NCBI GenBank assembly: GCA_002362595.1
Contig: DEUO01000149.1
Coordinates: 1,052-7,341 of the forward strand
DNA from: Caryophanales bacterium UBA3260
Lineage (GTDB): Bacteria; Bacillota_I; Bacilli_A; RF39; UBA660
Length of the DNA stretch: 6,290 bases
Reading direction: 5' to 3'
Shown here: piece by piece, positions 1 through 4,247 of the stretch
Layout: each line of letters begins with the position of its first letter
How positions within the stretch are numbered: the stretch's first letter is position 1
Position numbers and translations under genes: made by a program
The notes under the pieces: generated by a model
The model's input: only the letters and a program-made list of their open reading frames with translations
What the model was told of the DNA's origin: nothing
The model's database searches: none

Positions 1-2346
1 TCTATGCCAGGTATGATGGATACTATTTTAAATTTAGGTTTAAATGAAGAAGTAGTAAATGTTTTAGCTGAAAAGTCTGGTAATGCTAGATGGGCTTGGG
101 ATTGCTATAGAAGATTTATTCAAATGTATTCTGATGTTGTTATGGAAGTAGGCAAGAAATACTTTGAAGAATTAATTGATAAGATGAAAGAAGCTAAAGG
201 CGTTAAACAAGACGTTGAATTAGATGCTGATGATCTTAAAGAATTAGCTAACCAATTTAAGGCTGAATATAAAGAAAAGATTGGTTCAGATTTCCCTGAT
301 GATCCAAAAGAACAATTAATGGGTGCAATTAAGGCTGTATTCCGTTCATGGGATAATCCACGTGCTAACGTTTATAGAAGAGATAACGATATTCCTTATT
401 CTTGGGGAACTGCTGTTAATGTTCAATCTATGGCATTTGGTAACATGGGTGATGATTGTGGTACAGGTGTTGCATTTACACGTGATCCAGCTACTGGAGA
501 AAAAGGTTTATTTGGTGAATTCTTAACTAATGCTCAAGGTGAAGATGTTGTTGCTGGTGTTCGTACACCAATGCATATTTCAGAAATGGAAGAAAAATTC
601 CCTGAAGCATTTAAAGAATTTAAAAATGTTTGTAAAACTCTAGAAGAACATTATAGAGATATGCAAGATATGGAATTTACTGTAGAACATGGTAAACTAT
701 ATATGCTTCAAACTAGAAATGGTAAGAGAACTGCTCAAGCTGCATTGAAGATTGCTTGTGATTTAGTTGATGAAGGAATGCGTACTGAGGAAGAAGCAGT
801 ATTGATGATTGATCCTAGAAACTTAGATACTTTATTACATCCTCAATTCGACACTAAAGCATTAAAAGCTGCTACTCCAATTGGAAAAGCTTTAGGAGCA
901 AGTCCTGGTGCTGCTTGTGGTAAAATAGTATTTACTGCCGAAGATGCTGAAAAACAAGGTATTGGTGGTAAAGGTGATAAAGTTATACTTGTACGTCTTG
1001 AAACTTCACCAGAAGATATAACTGGTATGAAGGCTGCTCAAGGTATTTTAACTGTACGTGGAGGTATGACATCACATGCTGCAGTAGTTGCACGTGGAAT
1101 GGGTACTTGCTGTGTATCTGGTTGTGGCGATATTCAAATGAATGAAGCTAAAAAAGAGTTTACTTTAGCTGGTAAAACTTATCATGAAGGCGATGTTATT
1201 TCAATTGACGGATCTACTGGTAATATTTACGATGGTGCTATTCAAACTGTTGATGCTACTATCGCTGGTGAATTTGGCCGTGTAATGGCTTGGGCTGATA
1301 AGTATAGAACTTTAGGCGTTAGAACTAATGCTGATACTCCAAAAGATACTAAGAAAGCTATTGAATTAGGTGCTGAAGGTATTGGTTTATGCCGTACAGA
1401 GCATATGTTCTTCGATGAAGAAAGAATATTTAATTTACGTAAGATGATTCTATCTGAAACTGTAGAAGATCGTGAAAAATATCTAGATTTATTAATCCCT
1501 TATCAAAAAGGCGATTTTAAAGCTATGTATAAAGAATTAAAAGGTCTTCCAATGACAGTTCGTTATTTAGATCCACCTTTACATGAATTTATTCCTAAAA
1601 CAGATGCTGAAATGAAACAACTTGCTGATGCTATGGGTGTTACAGTTGAACATGTAAAAGCTAAATGTGATGAATTGCATGAATTTAACCCTATGATGGG
1701 TCATAGAGGATGCCGTCTTGCTGTTACTTATCCAGAAATTGCAAGAATGCAAACTAGAGCTTTAATGGAAGCTGCAATTGAGGTTTCTAAAGAAGATGGA
1801 TATAATATTGTTCCTGAAATTATGATTCCACTTGTAGGTGAAGTTAAAGAATTAAAATTTGTTAAGGATGTAGTTGTTGAAACTGCTGAAATAGTTAAGA
1901 AAGAACATAATTCTGATATGGAATACCATATTGGTACAATGATTGAAATACCTAGAGCTGCACTTACTGCTGATGAAGTAGCTAAGGAAGCTGAATTCTT
2001 CTCATTTGGAACAAATGACTTAACTCAAATGACATTTGGTTTCTCTAGAGATGATGCTGGTAAATTCTTAGGTTCTTATTATGAGAATAAGATTTATGAA
2101 CAAGATCCATTTGCTAAATTAGACCAAGTTGGTGTTGGTTCATTAGTTAAAATGGCAGTTGAAAAAGGTAGAGCTACTAGACCTAATATTAAATTAGGAA
2201 TATGTGGTGAACATGGTGGAGATCCATCAAGTGTTGAATTCTGCCATAATATTGGATTAACTTATGTTTCTTGCTCTCCATTTAGAGTTCCTATTGCGAG
2301 ACTTGCTGCTGCACAAGCTGCTATTAAAAATGGGAGTAATAAATAA
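1..2346 (+). CDS. ppdK: Pyruvate, phosphate dikinase (PPDK), 5'-truncated by the window edge
   Basis: This enzyme interconverts pyruvate + ATP + Pi and phosphoenolpyruvate + AMP + PPi in the cytosol. In many anaerobes it runs towards pyruvate as part of PPi-linked glycolysis. The frame is open from base 1 (Ser, then MPGMMDTILNLGLN), which is an internal stretch of the N-terminal ATP-grasp domain. About 90-100 N-terminal residues are therefore outside the window, and the ATG at position 4 is not the start. The swivelling phosphohistidine domain shows GGMTSHA, with the catalytic His codon at 1075-1077 preceded by the regulatory Thr-Ser. The C-terminal PEP/pyruvate barrel shows GIGLCRTEHMF, MGHRGCRL, GTNDLTQMTFGFSRDD and CGEHGGDP, with the catalytic Cys codon at 2203-2205. 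No frameshift is visible. The last five codons (NGSNK) follow a sequence, AQAAIK, that is repeated exactly at 3143-3160 with a different tail. The present C-terminus therefore seems to have been remade when a toxin-antitoxin module inserted. Identification is very secure. Confidence 0.97.
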   Translation, partial: SMPGMMDTILNLGLNEEVVNVLAEKSGNARWAWDCYRRFIQMYSDVVMEVGKKYFEELIDKMKEAKGVKQDVELDADDLKELANQFKAEYKEKIGSDFPDDPKEQLMGAIKAVFRSWDNPRANVYRRDNDIPYSWGTAVNVQSMAFGNMGDDCGTGVAFTRDPATGEKGLFGEFLTNAQGEDVVAGVRTPMHISEMEEKFPEAFKEFKNVCKTLEEHYRDMQDMEFTVEHGKLYMLQTRNGKRTAQAALKIACDLVDEGMRTEEEAVLMIDPRNLDTLLHPQFDTKALKAATPIGKALGASPGAACGKIVFTAEDAEKQGIGGKGDKVILVRLETSPEDITGMKAAQGILTVRGGMTSHAAVVARGMGTCCVSGCGDIQMNEAKKEFTLAGKTYHEGDVISIDGSTGNIYDGAIQTVDATIAGEFGRVMAWADKYRTLGVRTNADTPKDTKKAIELGAEGIGLCRTEHMFFDEERIFNLRKMILSETVEDREKYLDLLIPYQKGDFKAMYKELKGLPMTVRYLDPPLHEFIPKTDAEMKQLADAMGVTVEHVKAKCDELHEFNPMMGHRGCRLAVTYPEIARMQTRALMEAAIEVSKEDGYNIVPEIMIPLVGEVKELKFVKDVVVETAEIVKKEHNSDMEYHIGTMIEIPRAALTADEVAKEAEFFSFGTNDLTQMTFGFSRDDAGKFLGSYYENKIYEQDPFAKLDQVGVGSLVKMAVEKGRATRPNIKLGICGEHGGDPSSVEFCHNIGLTYVSCSPFRVPIARLAAAQAAIKNGSNK
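2311..2328 (+). repeat. 18-bp direct repeat, left copy, inside the ppdK 3' end
   Basis: GCACAAGCTGCTATTAAA encodes AQAAIK of PPDK and recurs exactly at 3143-3160. The flanking bases differ on both sides. The two copies lie 832 bp apart (start to start) and bracket the type III toxin-antitoxin module, like attachment sites or a duplicated insertion target. No integrase or transposase gene lies between them. Confidence 0.9.
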
Positions 2347-2357
2347 TTAGCCATTAC

Positions 2358-2408
2358 GTATACTATTAATGGTATACTATTTGACATTTTCTATAGTTTA
2401 TAGTATAC
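2358..2408. promoter_or_regulatory. GTATACTAT repeats around the antitoxin promoter (operator-like)
   Basis: GTATACTAT occurs at 2358-2366 and 2372-2380, and its reverse complement ATAGTATAC at 2400-2408. The last two copies flank the -35 box, and the third overlaps the -10 box. A 6-bp inverted repeat, CCATTA/TAATGG (2351-2356 and 2367-2372), also lies here, but without a U-tract it is a poor terminator for ppdK. The repeats could bind a regulator. They could also be chance, because each copy contains TATACT, a -10-like hexamer in AT-rich DNA. Confidence 0.4.
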
Positions 2409-2409
2409 T
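2381..2409 (+). promoter_or_regulatory. Sigma-70/SigA-type promoter of the antitoxin RNA
   Basis: The -35 box TTGACA (2381-2386, perfect consensus) is followed by a 17-bp spacer and the -10 box TATACT (2404-2409). The expected transcription start is near 2416, about 20 bases before the first antitoxin repeat. A strong promoter ahead of the RNA antitoxin is the usual arrangement in type III modules. Confidence 0.85.
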
Positions 2410-2415
2410 TTTATT

Positions 2416-2571
2416 ACATTGAAGAAATTCAATAGTAAATGTTAGCCGCTCTTGGATGGCGCGGGATATAAATTATTCCAGGCGAGAAATGTTAATCGCT
2501 CCCGGATGGCGCGAGTAATAAATTATTCCGGATGAAAATGTTTGAAAACTCTGTCATATGATGGAGTTTTC
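2416..2571 (+). ncRNA. cptI: Type III RNA antitoxin (CptI/ToxI-like), two-repeat pseudoknot precursor
   Basis: This non-coding RNA would bind and inhibit the ribonuclease encoded just downstream. The predicted transcript begins with a small hairpin (TTGAA-GAAA-TTCAA, 2419-2432), continues with two repeat units (2437-2486 and 2487-2535) and ends in a terminator hairpin (2544-2571). Each unit can form an H-type pseudoknot. Stem 1 pairs 2446-2449 with 2461-2464 (unit 1) and 2496-2499 with 2511-2514 (unit 2). Stem 2 pairs bases in the stem-1 loop with a downstream strand: 2451-2456 with 2477-2482, and 2502-2506 with 2527-2531. The units differ by compensatory changes in both stems: C-G to T-A in stem 1, and T-A to C-G plus T-G to C-G in stem 2. 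Known type III antitoxins are tandem pseudoknots cut out by their own toxin. Assignment to the Cpt branch rather than Tox rests on the toxin sequence and is less sure. The 5' end is inferred from the promoter. Confidence 0.88.
2437..2542 (+). repeat. Antitoxin tandem repeats: 50 nt, 49 nt and a 7-nt partial third copy
   Basis: Unit 1 (2437-2486) and unit 2 (2487-2535) match at 39 of 49 aligned positions, and a third copy starts (AAATGTT, 2536-2542) before the terminator. Each boundary carries AAATG, at 2437, 2487 and 2536. ToxN-family toxins are known to cut A-rich sites at repeat boundaries, so these are the likely processing sites. Cutting there would release two monomers of about 50 nt. 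Confidence 0.9.
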
Positions 2572-2575
2572 TTTT
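2544..2575 (+). terminator. Leaky terminator between antitoxin RNA and toxin gene
   Basis: GAAAACTC (2544-2551) pairs with GAGTTTTC (2564-2571). The stem continues inwards through two G-U pairs, a T-A and a C-G to an ATAT loop (2556-2559), giving 12 pairs, and is followed by TTTT. In type III modules a terminator here keeps antitoxin RNA in large excess, with the toxin mRNA made by read-through. Confidence 0.88.
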
Positions 2576-2611
2576 GATTTATGTTAAAATATTTTTGTAA
2601 GGATGGATGCT

Positions 2612-3085
2612 ATGAAAGTACAAACAGGATATATTTACCATATAAAGGATGAGTTCTTTGATAGGATTAATGATAAAGGACTTATGATTAATCATGAAAA
2701 CGGGCATAGTAGACCAACTTACTTTACTATAAAAGATAATGATATACTTTGGTTTGTTCCCCTAAGTAGTAAAGTATCAAAATATCAAAGTCTAATTGAT
2801 AAAAAAGTAGAAAAATATGGAAGTTGTAAATCAATTATGATTAGTGAAATAGCTAATGAAAAATCTGTTATATTATTACAAAATGCATTTCCAACATTAG
2901 AAAAATATATAGATCATCCACATATAGTTGATGGTAAACCACTAAAAGTAATTGATACATTAAAAGAAGAAATTTTAGATAATTTTAAATATTTACTTGC
3001 TTTAAAAAAAGAGGATAGGAATTTATTTTTTACAGATATAGATAAAATCAAAGAAATAATGTTAAATGAATTAGGGGAGAAATAA
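2612..3085 (+). CDS. cptN: Type III toxin, CptN/ToxN-family endoribonuclease
   Basis: This is the toxin of a type III toxin-antitoxin module: a cytosolic, sequence-specific RNase held inactive by the upstream RNA repeats. Such modules act in phage defence by abortive infection and in plasmid or element stability. From the ATG at 2612 the protein has 157 residues, normal for the family. Features seen: N-terminal GYIYHIKDEFF (residues 6-16), SRPTYFTI (33-40), and the active-site-like strand FVPLSSK (48-54), matching the RPY...PLTS/PLSS pattern of ToxN, AbiQ and CptN. The C-terminal third is helical and charged. ATG 2612 is preferred over the in-frame ATG at 2603 because AAGGA (2599-2603) lies 8 bases before 2612 but overlaps the earlier ATG. 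The gene starts 36 bases after the antitoxin terminator. No good terminator follows directly, and the next is at 3193-3217. Family assignment is strong. The CptN branch is favoured by remembered similarity to Coprococcus/Eubacterium CptN proteins and was not searched. Confidence 0.92.
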   Translation: MKVQTGYIYHIKDEFFDRINDKGLMINHENGHSRPTYFTIKDNDILWFVPLSSKVSKYQSLIDKKVEKYGSCKSIMISEIANEKSVILLQNAFPTLEKYIDHPHIVDGKPLKVIDTLKEEILDNFKYLLALKKEDRNLFFTDIDKIKEIMLNELGEK

Positions 3086-3142
3086 TATCTATTTAGATTT
3101 TGTTTTAAATATAAACTAAATGACCTACAAAATTGAATGGTG

Positions 3143-3178
3143 GCACAAGCTGCTATTAAAGAAAAACAAAGTAAGTAA
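3143..3178 (+). pseudogene. Displaced ppdK C-terminal fragment (AQAAIKEKQSK, stop)
   Basis: Read in the ppdK frame, these bases encode AQAAIKEKQSK followed by TAA. The first 18 bases (3143-3160) are identical to 2311-2328 inside ppdK. The tail then differs (EKQSK here, NGSNK in the intact gene), although both tails have five codons and the same stop. A terminator begins 15 bases later. This is probably the original end of ppdK, cut off from the gene by the inserted module. A 13-codon frame starting at ATG 3137 runs through it, but I do not regard it as a gene. Confidence 0.82.
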
Positions 3179-3192
3179 TAAATTCTGTAATT

Positions 3193-3231
3193 AGACTAAG
3201 ATGATGAATCTTAGTCTTCTATAGTGTTTTT
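3193..3231 (+). terminator. Rho-independent terminator, probably the former ppdK terminator
   Basis: AGACTAAGAT (3193-3202) pairs perfectly with ATCTTAGTCT (3208-3217) around a 5-base loop. The T-rich stretch is offset (TTTTT at 3227-3231), so it may not be a sharp stop. It lies 15 bases after the stop of the displaced ppdK tail and is the first good hairpin after the toxin gene, so it now probably ends the toxin mRNA. Confidence 0.75.
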
Positions 3232-3232
3232 G

Positions 3233-3261
3233 TTGATTTTGTTTTGTTTTGAATATATAAT
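3233..3261 (+). promoter_or_regulatory. Promoter of the candidate small RNA
   Basis: TTGATT (3233-3238), a 17-bp spacer and TATAAT (3256-3261, perfect -10) predict a start near 3268. The same box pair and spacing occur ahead of the PfkB gene at 4248-4276. No reading frame with a ribosome binding site follows before the terminator at 3353-3388. Confidence 0.75.
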
Positions 3262-3267
3262 GAATTT

Positions 3268-3388
3268 GTATTAAAAAGTTTGCCTAATATTTATATGACA
3301 ATTTGAACGATAAGGTTTATTTCTAGAGGCAAAATAGAAATATGTATGATACGGAGATACTTATTTATACGATGAATGTCTCTTTTTT
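3268..3388 (+). ncRNA. Candidate structured small RNA, about 120 nt, family unknown
   Basis: A consensus promoter and a U-tailed terminator bracket about 120 bases with no plausible coding frame. ATTTCTA (3319-3325) pairs with TAGAAAT (3335-3341) around a 9-base loop. AGGCAAA inside that loop (3327-3333) is the exact complement of TTTGCCT upstream (3279-3285), so a 7+7-bp H-type pseudoknot is possible. The last helix is the terminator. It could be a stand-alone small RNA, a terminator-type riboswitch or attenuator for something downstream, or a second RNA antitoxin without tandem repeats. I do not recognise it as a known riboswitch, 6S RNA or SRP RNA. The promoter and terminator are seen directly; the fold and function are inferred. 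Confidence 0.6.
3353..3388 (+). terminator. Terminator of the candidate small RNA
   Basis: GAGATA (3354-3359) pairs with TGTCTC (3377-3382, one G-U). After one mismatch, TTATT (3361-3365) pairs with GATGA (3371-3375, two G-U) around the loop TATAC. Six T residues follow (3383-3388). Confidence 0.72.
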
Positions 3389-3560
3389 GCTTTGTAAATA
3401 CAGATAAATTATAATGTGTGAAATAATAGAAACAGGAAATATGCACTTGAAATTGATACTTATATTGTATTAATGAATAATATTTATATGTTTTTTTATA
3501 TGTGCTTACTGATTATTATACTTATATTATGATATTTTGATTTTTTTGCTAAATAAAGTA
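3389..3560. other. AT-rich intergenic stretch with nothing recognised
   Basis: I found no coding frame with a ribosome binding site on either strand, no strong hairpin and no RNA gene here. A 19-codon frame (3414-3473) lacks a ribosome binding site. The 13-base word TAATATTTATATG at 3478-3490 also occurs at 3285-3297, but in DNA this AT-rich it carries little weight. Confidence 0.5.
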
Positions 3561-3677: not shown

Positions 3678-4247
3678 ATGTGTCGTACACGTGAATATCA
3701 AGATATAATAAATGATGAATTAGAAAAAGCAAGTCAAAAAAAGGCTGCTGATGAACAAGCAAAGATAGCTTTAGAATTAGAAGAGAAAAGAAAAGAAAAA
3801 AGAAAATTATTAGAATCTAAGCAAGAAGTTTTAAAATCGTCATTAACAGATTTTTCTAAGATGATTGCTGAATGTTCTAAATATATTTCAGAAATACAGG
3901 GAATAATAAATGATAATTCAAATGATATAATTACTGTACCTGCAGAGTTATTATTTGTTAAAGTTAATGAGCATTATGAATTTAATCCATTATTTTTAGC
4001 TCCTGGTATATTAAAATATGTTGATTTAAGTATAATATCTTTTCAAGATGTTAAGGTAAGTGGAATAGATTTATCTTATACGAATGCTAATATTGATCCA
4101 CAAAAAGTATATAAAAAGGATATGAGTAATGGTAAGTATTGTGGTTTAGATTTTAATTTAGGTGATTTTACTGATGTAAATATAGATAAAGCTGATTTTA
4201 CGGATGCTATAATGGGTTTTTCAGTAAATAACACACCTAAAAAATAA
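3678..4247 (+). CDS. Coiled-coil and pentapeptide-repeat-like protein; true start probably upstream near 3591
   Basis: Function is not known. From ATG 3678 the protein has 189 residues. Residues 9-55 are highly charged (EKASQKKAADEQAK, ELEEKRKEKRK) and should form a coiled coil. Residues 115-180 carry irregular pentapeptide-repeat-like units (VDLSI, IDLSY, TNANI, GLDFN, DFTDV, ADFTDA), expected to fold as a right-handed beta-helix. No signal peptide or membrane segment is seen. The frame stays open upstream back to a TAA just before 3573 and reads as convincing protein (DISDIGFKRKIELKTGIDRVKTLNEFRE). It contains no ATG, GTG or TTG, while a promoter and AAAGG sit exactly where a start near 3591 (ATA) would be served. 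ATG 3678 has only GAGAG directly against it. Either the start is a non-standard ATA or ATT, giving 218 residues, or a G-to-A change has destroyed the start codon. Next comes a new promoter directly after the stop. Confidence 0.8.
   Translation: MCRTREYQDIINDELEKASQKKAADEQAKIALELEEKRKEKRKLLESKQEVLKSSLTDFSKMIAECSKYISEIQGIINDNSNDIITVPAELLFVKVNEHYEFNPLFLAPGILKYVDLSIISFQDVKVSGIDLSYTNANIDPQKVYKKDMSNGKYCGLDFNLGDFTDVNIDKADFTDAIMGFSVNNTPKK

Follow-up and report, generated by a model that had tools for sequence, protein, structure and literature searches.

The ppdK 3' end and the CptIN module

The stretch of DNA analyzed here, called the window, consists of 6,290 nucleotides of contig DEUO01000149.1 from Caryophanales bacterium UBA3260, and carries a CptIN toxin–antitoxin module at the 3' end of ppdK, the gene for pyruvate, phosphate dikinase. 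The window features given below for positions 1–3440 lie on the plus strand. The 3' part of ppdK, the target gene, occupies positions 1–2346 (Pfam PF02896, PF01326, and PF00391), and its product ends in AQAAIKNGSNK before the stop codon. An exact 18-bp direct repeat, GCACAAGCTGCTATTAAA, is found at 2311–2328 and again at 3143–3160, with a spacing of 832 bp. The left copy lies within ppdK and is the putative core of a left attachment site (attL), a similar core being found in the arrays of related genomes, and the right copy is the putative attR core, where the junction profile described below also matches. The codons NGSNK and the stop codon that follow the left copy (2329–2346) would be cassette-borne replacements for the end of the gene, and relatives have alternative tails here; in one of them (locus L277 of genome G150; L and G numbers designate our loci and genomes), the junction is followed by the tail QAAIKNGSKN and a stop codon, resembling the replacement tail. 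The second copy reads AQAAIKEKQSK to a stop codon, with the old tail EKQSK and its stop at 3161–3178 and a terminator-like hairpin (GACTAAG/CTTAGTC) at 3194–3216, and a similar tail with an AGACT..AGTCT terminator is found in L006, L007, and L014. The right arm of the cassette (3110–3142) has diverged from the array consensus except for its GTGGC end. In this arrangement, ppdK is kept open and direct repeats stand at both ends of the cassette, as in the staphylococcal cassette chromosome (SCC).

Between the repeats, a promoter-like sequence, TTGACA-17-TATACT (2381–2409; similar in L007, L121, and L129), precedes the cptI antitoxin (2437–2536), in which a repeat search found two 50-nt repeats (2437–2486 and 2487–2536) that are 78% alike. 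A terminator-like hairpin (2544–2571; fold z -5.25) separates cptI from cptN (2612–3085), which encodes a toxin of 157 amino acids belonging to an RNase family. The protein scores 151.9 bits against the NCBIfam CptIN equivalog NF047359 (cut-off 90) and matches the CptN of PDB 4rmo (9.5e-16), and the tandem RNA repeats and terminator expected of a CptIN system lie upstream of its gene. The module thus resembles the CptIN of E. rectale (4rmo) in its toxin family, its tandem-repeat RNA, and the terminator-like hairpin between RNA and toxin, whereas its repeat period is 50 nt rather than that of the 45-nt pseudoknot of E. rectale. Active-site residues also differ in part. Relative to the residues named in PMC4627078 (numbered by the printed chain positions of 4rmo), the window protein keeps Ser-Ser and Ser85, and has Lys for Arg (SSK for SSR in the active-site triad), Asn for Asp81, and His for Tyr104.

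The preliminary description of this DNA had given the same coordinates for the exact 18-bp copies, and had taken the DNA between them to be one complete CptIN module that lacks a recombinase and is followed by the alternative tail EKQSK, a stop codon, and a terminator. The coordinates are right, the two antitoxin repeats, the hairpin, and the toxin are all present, and no recombinase was found among the window open reading frames (ORFs) scanned. An Rfam scan of the window found no family at an expectation value (E) of up to 1. In 842 kb of comparable DNA, exact repeats of at least 18 bp at 500–1500 bp occur 25 times, in nine of 80 loci; because such repeats are not extremely rare, an 18-bp repeat is, by itself, no more than suggestive. 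The weight of the case lies in the facts that the repeat is the ppdK tail and that it recurs in other genomes. This recurrence rules out a chance repeat.

Cassettes and junctions behind ppdK in related genomes

Eighty ppdK loci were fetched for comparison, and the window protein is 81–90% identical to those of the twelve best, L001–L012. Among the genomes of these loci, G002, G003, G006, G007, G008, and G009 belong to the set used for the family searches, which comprises 386 genomes from a single family of uncultured Bacilli with small genomes. According to the preliminary description, a cassette in the ppdK 3' end re-supplies the tail of the gene, other modules flanked by ppdK-tail repeats were worth seeking, and the same arrangement in all relatives would speak against insertion. 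The arrangement is not the same everywhere: in L006 and L014, ppdK runs straight into the tail and terminator (with a CptIN 1.3 kb further on in L014), and other relatives have different cassettes at the same point. Modules flanked by ppdK-tail repeats were found, both as CptIN units and as cassette arrays. L007, which like L014 also encodes CptN, has three copies of the ppdK tail in the order ppdK, CptIN, tail and terminator, second unit, tail; the second unit consists of a second cptI stretch, a cut toxin start, and an ORF of 200 amino acids. In total, downstream tail copies were present in nine of 104 distinct ppdK loci, the window included, in a set that is enriched because some loci were chosen for CptIN or closely spaced tails. 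In the same 104 loci, a reversed query gave one match and an upstream search gave eight, seven of them other ppdK coding sequence and one an array copy in L189.

In G117, four further tail copies have different genes between them, encoding a helix-turn-helix (HTH)-type protein, a CAAX-type protease, and a phosphotransferase-like protein, together with what reads as an ATP-binding cassette (ABC)-transporter set. Six further tail copies extend over 8.5 kb in G038, where an RsgA-like GTPase is part of the cargo, and another six over 15 kb in G057. Other cargo includes a Fic protein (G262), a DUF5131 protein (G337), and a PHP-domain protein (G079). Nearly all of the junction-bounded ORFs of at least 75 amino acids lie on the ppdK strand (93 of 95), and no minus-strand junction of at least 7.5 bits was found in the 33 stretches scanned. 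The arrays consist of unrelated cassettes with a common start at or near ACAAGC, re-supplied ppdK codons with a stop, and, often, a terminator.

The junction can be written as a pattern, TGGYACAAGCNGCNATNAA, which was framed from junctions including that of the window and of which the TGGY part is not derived from ppdK. It occurs at 36 sites in 34 of the 386 genomes, with no site for the backward control in the table. Three of these are rpsE coding sequence (L248, L249, and L250), so that 33 sites in 31 genomes remain; the site in G235 is on a contig of 1.26 Mb. Together with the window there are 34 sites, and 33 of these read QAAI, a few codons, and a stop; the other, L253, is cut by the contig end. 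On the cassette side, the cassettes end in a partly conserved arm of approximately 30 bp, commonly GTGGYAC, in which the favored positions to the left of the junction are C at -17, CCC at -14 to -12, AA at -10 and -9, and G at -1. A 45-column profile was run on loci that overlap in part and total 2.15 Mb; it gave 183 matches (E up to 10; training sites included), compared with seven on the reversed sequence, the best of which scored 8.6 bits. When the window was left out of the training, the full profile matched it at 3128–3159 with 25.2 bits. The pattern also occurs in 84 stretches of viral contigs, the best of the 80 loci listed scoring 23.5 bits against the profile; these matches carry no weight either way.

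CptN matches are present in 89 of the 386 genomes (E 0.001, fragments included). From these genomes and the earlier loci, 75 distinct CptN units with matches longer than 110 residues were collected, of which 19, counting that of the window, lie near ppdK or a fragment of it. In eight units (the window, L007, L121, L124, L136, L137, L140, and L159), CptIN is flanked by direct repeats of the ppdK tail, and the 5' edge of the second copy lies at ACAAGC or a few bases from it (at AAGC in L007 and L136). In 13 of the 75 units, the cptN stop codon is followed by a junction-like match scoring 10 bits or more; one of the 13, in L159, comes from a ppdK fragment instead of a right arm. With weaker matches, the count is 15. 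CptN had no match in phage records and seven distant matches in plasmid records.

Some loci carry only parts of such a module. A cptI-like repeat and terminator lie after ppdK at 7100–7240 of L002, the genome of which has no CptN match, and cptI-like terminators stand directly after ppdK in L012 and L024, with no toxin there. These elements are perhaps relics of lost CptIN cassettes, some of which now serve as the ppdK terminator. In L117 (G025), where no ppdK is visible, the CptIN unit is flanked by a direct repeat of 137 bp that seems to include the start of a divergent gene; this is a different duplication.

A linked serine recombinase and the origin of the cassettes

Longer elements come first behind ppdK in G285, G235, and G057, and encode a serine recombinase of 538–562 amino acids with the domains PF00239 and PF07508. 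An HTH-like gene lies directly after ppdK in all three (weak Pfam scores; 40–52% alike). The right junction of the G285 element lies 7.5 kb on, and the element also encodes a type IIG-like restriction-methylase and a protein with a sub-threshold match to ApeA_NTD1. The best NCBIfam relatives of three of the recombinases are CcrB (141 bits), CcrC (114 bits), and XisF, all far below the cut-offs (141 of 900 for CcrB). The recombinase is found at 28 places in 25 of the 386 family genomes (E up to 1e-80), and in one of 376 genomes of a class-wide sample, at 37% identity. Of 26 loci that were inspected, 11 lie downstream of a ppdK gene in the same orientation and 21 are followed by a junction on their own strand; 25 show at least one of these features, and the exception is G304. 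Some of these junctions are weak, with 8.0 bits in G286 and 10–14 bits at several other loci. A junction of at least 8 bits was present at 13 of 28 loci of this type versus none of ten loci, with similarly short flanks, of serine recombinases that are 32–37% identical.

Cassettes are also shared between genomes with much less similar ppdK genes. G117 and G038, whose ppdK genes are 71.5% identical, have a cassette in common that is 97.8% identical over 1230 bp; the identity begins at the A of ACAAGC in both and extends some 60 bp into the next tail. G220 and G285 share a segment that is 98.0% identical over 3285 bp (ppdK segment, 76.6%); it begins shortly before the recombinase gene and takes in the right junction. 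For CptIN, the shared identity is 94.6% in G198 and G314 (ppdK, 72.7%) and 93.5% in G313 and G344 (ppdK, 69.9%).

Taken together, there is a recurrent cassette system, site-specific by all appearances, of which the window has one small, somewhat decayed example. CptIN is probably a non-autonomous cassette at an attachment site in the ppdK 3' end that also serves a family of integrative elements whose large serine recombinase is Ccr-like. An exchange at (GC)ACAAGC would join ppdK, up to ...AQA, to the tail codons, stop, and promoter borne by the cassette, with the earlier tail and its terminator remaining on the right-hand side of the cassette. Because each insertion would leave ACAAGC plus a tail on ppdK, the site would be regenerated and cassettes would stack in one orientation. 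The linked recombinase would catalyze the event, presumably acting in trans on the CptIN cassette, the excised form of which would be a circle of about 832 bp. Insertion in the ppdK 3' end had already been proposed for this module, with movement in trans as one option; this reading is supported, movement in trans being probable. The multi-cassette arrays, the linked recombinase family as the likely mobilizer, and the possible older cassette at the second tail (see below) are new.

Several observations weigh against this explanation. A full-length copy of the recombinase at 57% identity or more is present in just five of the 38 genomes searched that have arrays, junctions, or ppdK-adjacent CptIN; because most such genomes are without the gene, the small cassettes would have to move in trans or be fossils. 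Relatives of the recombinase occur in 592 phage records (the ten listed are 35–42% identical), and another of the 592 falls in the 60–80% identity band, so the enzyme type, being common in phages, is not special to ppdK elements; no relative in viral contigs was confirmed. Sixty of the 75 CptN units have no junction after the stop codon (five of the 75 have less than 600 bp of downstream sequence), so that CptIN must also spread in other ways. An arm-only model trained without the window found no match in it, most of the consensus being missing; the window arm is therefore degenerate, and its assignment relies on the core, GTGG, and the arrangement. A right-arm hairpin, as in the Enterococcus cassette chromosome (ECC), is not general (mean z -0.37 versus -0.03 on the ppdK side, p 0.53), and inverted repeats stand out clearly only in a number of arms of the CptIN type. 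All array genomes are draft assemblies. Most of the CptIN segments listed as shared between genomes begin at the cptI promoter or close to it rather than at the core.

The last point leads to the main alternative, homologous recombination, in which a donor ppdK with a linked CptIN recombines within the shared tail and terminator and small cassettes need no site-specific enzyme. Because the CptIN segments of G198/G314 and G313/G344 begin near the cptI promoter, they could have arrived by this route. Tails and terminators offer some 20–80 bp of homology, the two tail copies of L007 are nearly identical over 66 bp, and the match between G117 and G038 runs on into the next tail. On the other hand, the second copy has its 5' end no more than about six bases from ACAAGC in the window, L121, L124, L137, L140, L175, and L177, and recombinase genes are linked to the ppdK site. 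Moreover, the right arm is not derived from ppdK, yet is partly common to cassettes with unrelated genes. Overall, homologous recombination is an unlikely explanation.

It is also conceivable that the housekeeping XerC, encoded near ppdK in many genomes, moves the cassettes in an integron-like or dif-module-like manner, since a XerC/XerD-type gene lies on the same strand within about 2 kb upstream of ppdK in at least 11 loci (with estimated ppdK starts). Four of these proteins were typed: three score above the XerC cut-off, and the fourth, from L012, has XerC as its best match at a score below it. However, a like gene lies some 20–50 kb from ppdK in G117 and G046, both of which have arrays, so its proximity looks like ordinary synteny. 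The junction is unlike the consensus of dif and the larger elements encode their own serine recombinase, which together make this role for XerC very improbable. Least credible of all is that the second tail is a local duplication or an assembly artefact, produced by replication slippage or mis-assembly: the genomes are drafts and similar repeats have a base rate of nine in 80 loci, but different cassettes with a like junction occur in 31 of the 386 genomes, including the long G235 contig. Apart from these considerations, it should be mentioned that xerC-type genes near ppdK in L175, L195, L012, L179, L010, and others bring two recombination systems side by side, with synteny the probable reason.

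Downstream of the second tail, the window retains at 3253–3440 the leader of an ORF6N gene, 77–84% identical to leaders in L245, L404, and L014, with no ORF6N gene left. A leader of approximately 190 bp precedes ORF6N genes in three other genomes, lying approximately 100 bp after a junction in G076, approximately 1.1 kb after one in G275, and, in G014, after a ppdK tail and terminator, where the ORF6N gene is broken. It is possible that this is a regulatory leader; at 3271–3400, it folds no better than shuffled sequences (z -0.21). Because the leader is still present, the second ppdK tail of the window may be the left end of an older, decayed ORF6N cassette. The pfkB and smr genes that follow are probably the chromosomal flank, because relatives of them (30–75%) follow ppdK within 10 kb elsewhere: both in L006, L024, L188, and L191, and pfkB alone in L046. 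An ORF of 189 amino acids at 3678–4247 of the window has no Pfam match above the cut-off and one weak relative (31%) among the fetched loci, in L289, the locus of a distant serine recombinase.

Relationship to known cassette systems

SCC elements, the staphylococcal islands that carry antibiotic resistance, insert in rlmH, form composites, and leave rlmH intact. The ppdK target distinguishes the present system from SCC, as do its single-gene cassettes of around 1 kb, several per array, and its linked recombinases, which are not ccrA/B/C; CcrB and CcrC are their best names, at scores far below the equivalog cut-offs. According to PMC6222049 and PMC10581047, SCC and ECC elements have direct-repeat attachment sites in the 3' region of a conserved gene, large serine recombinases, and variable cargo, and the ppdK elements share all of these properties. 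The ECC attR sites also contain inverted repeats, in the account of PMC6222049. A changed target is described in PMC10581047 for the CI-ccrDE island of staphylococci, an 18.8-kb island in rimL with a 19-bp direct repeat and a Ccr-type recombinase; the ppdK system likewise combines a Ccr-like recombinase with a short direct repeat and another target gene, and differs in the gene, in the lineage, and from an island of that size. In other words, the ppdK system is SCC-like in its working and is not a member of SCC/ECC, having another target gene and another recombinase family. Searches of the open text of PubMed Central found no ppdK-targeted serine-recombinase cassettes.

If this explanation is true, it accounts for the spread between species of very small, recombinase-free defense modules, and SCC-type islands gain an equivalent that targets another gene and belongs to uncultured gut bacteria. 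The ppdK 3' end and the junction sequence would then provide a handle for the direct search for new defense cassettes, and a single recombinase with two sites would be enough to test whether tiny cassettes can move in trans.

The attC sites of integrons carry RYYYAAC and GTTRRRY boxes, and the consensus of the 34 junctions has no GTTRRRY box at the crossover. A general attC-like hairpin was rejected after the fold test given above. No integron integrase was found among ten tyrosine recombinases typed, from four of ten genomes and two other loci, all of which scored below the cut-offs. I speculate, tentatively and with the balance somewhat against it, that the integron is not the only natural platform for gene capture, and that a second one in gut Bacilli, based on a serine recombinase, adds small cassettes one after another downstream of a housekeeping gene; every cassette would donate a new gene end and thereby regenerate the site. 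Its cargo would comprise genes for toxin–antitoxin pairs, Fic proteins, phosphotransferases, proteases, and unknown products, and the larger elements would bring restriction genes. As in integrons, the ppdK arrays are made of one-gene cassettes that share a recombination sequence and an orientation, and one end of the array is fixed; unlike in integrons, each ppdK cassette carries the end of a host gene, and the linked enzyme is a serine recombinase.

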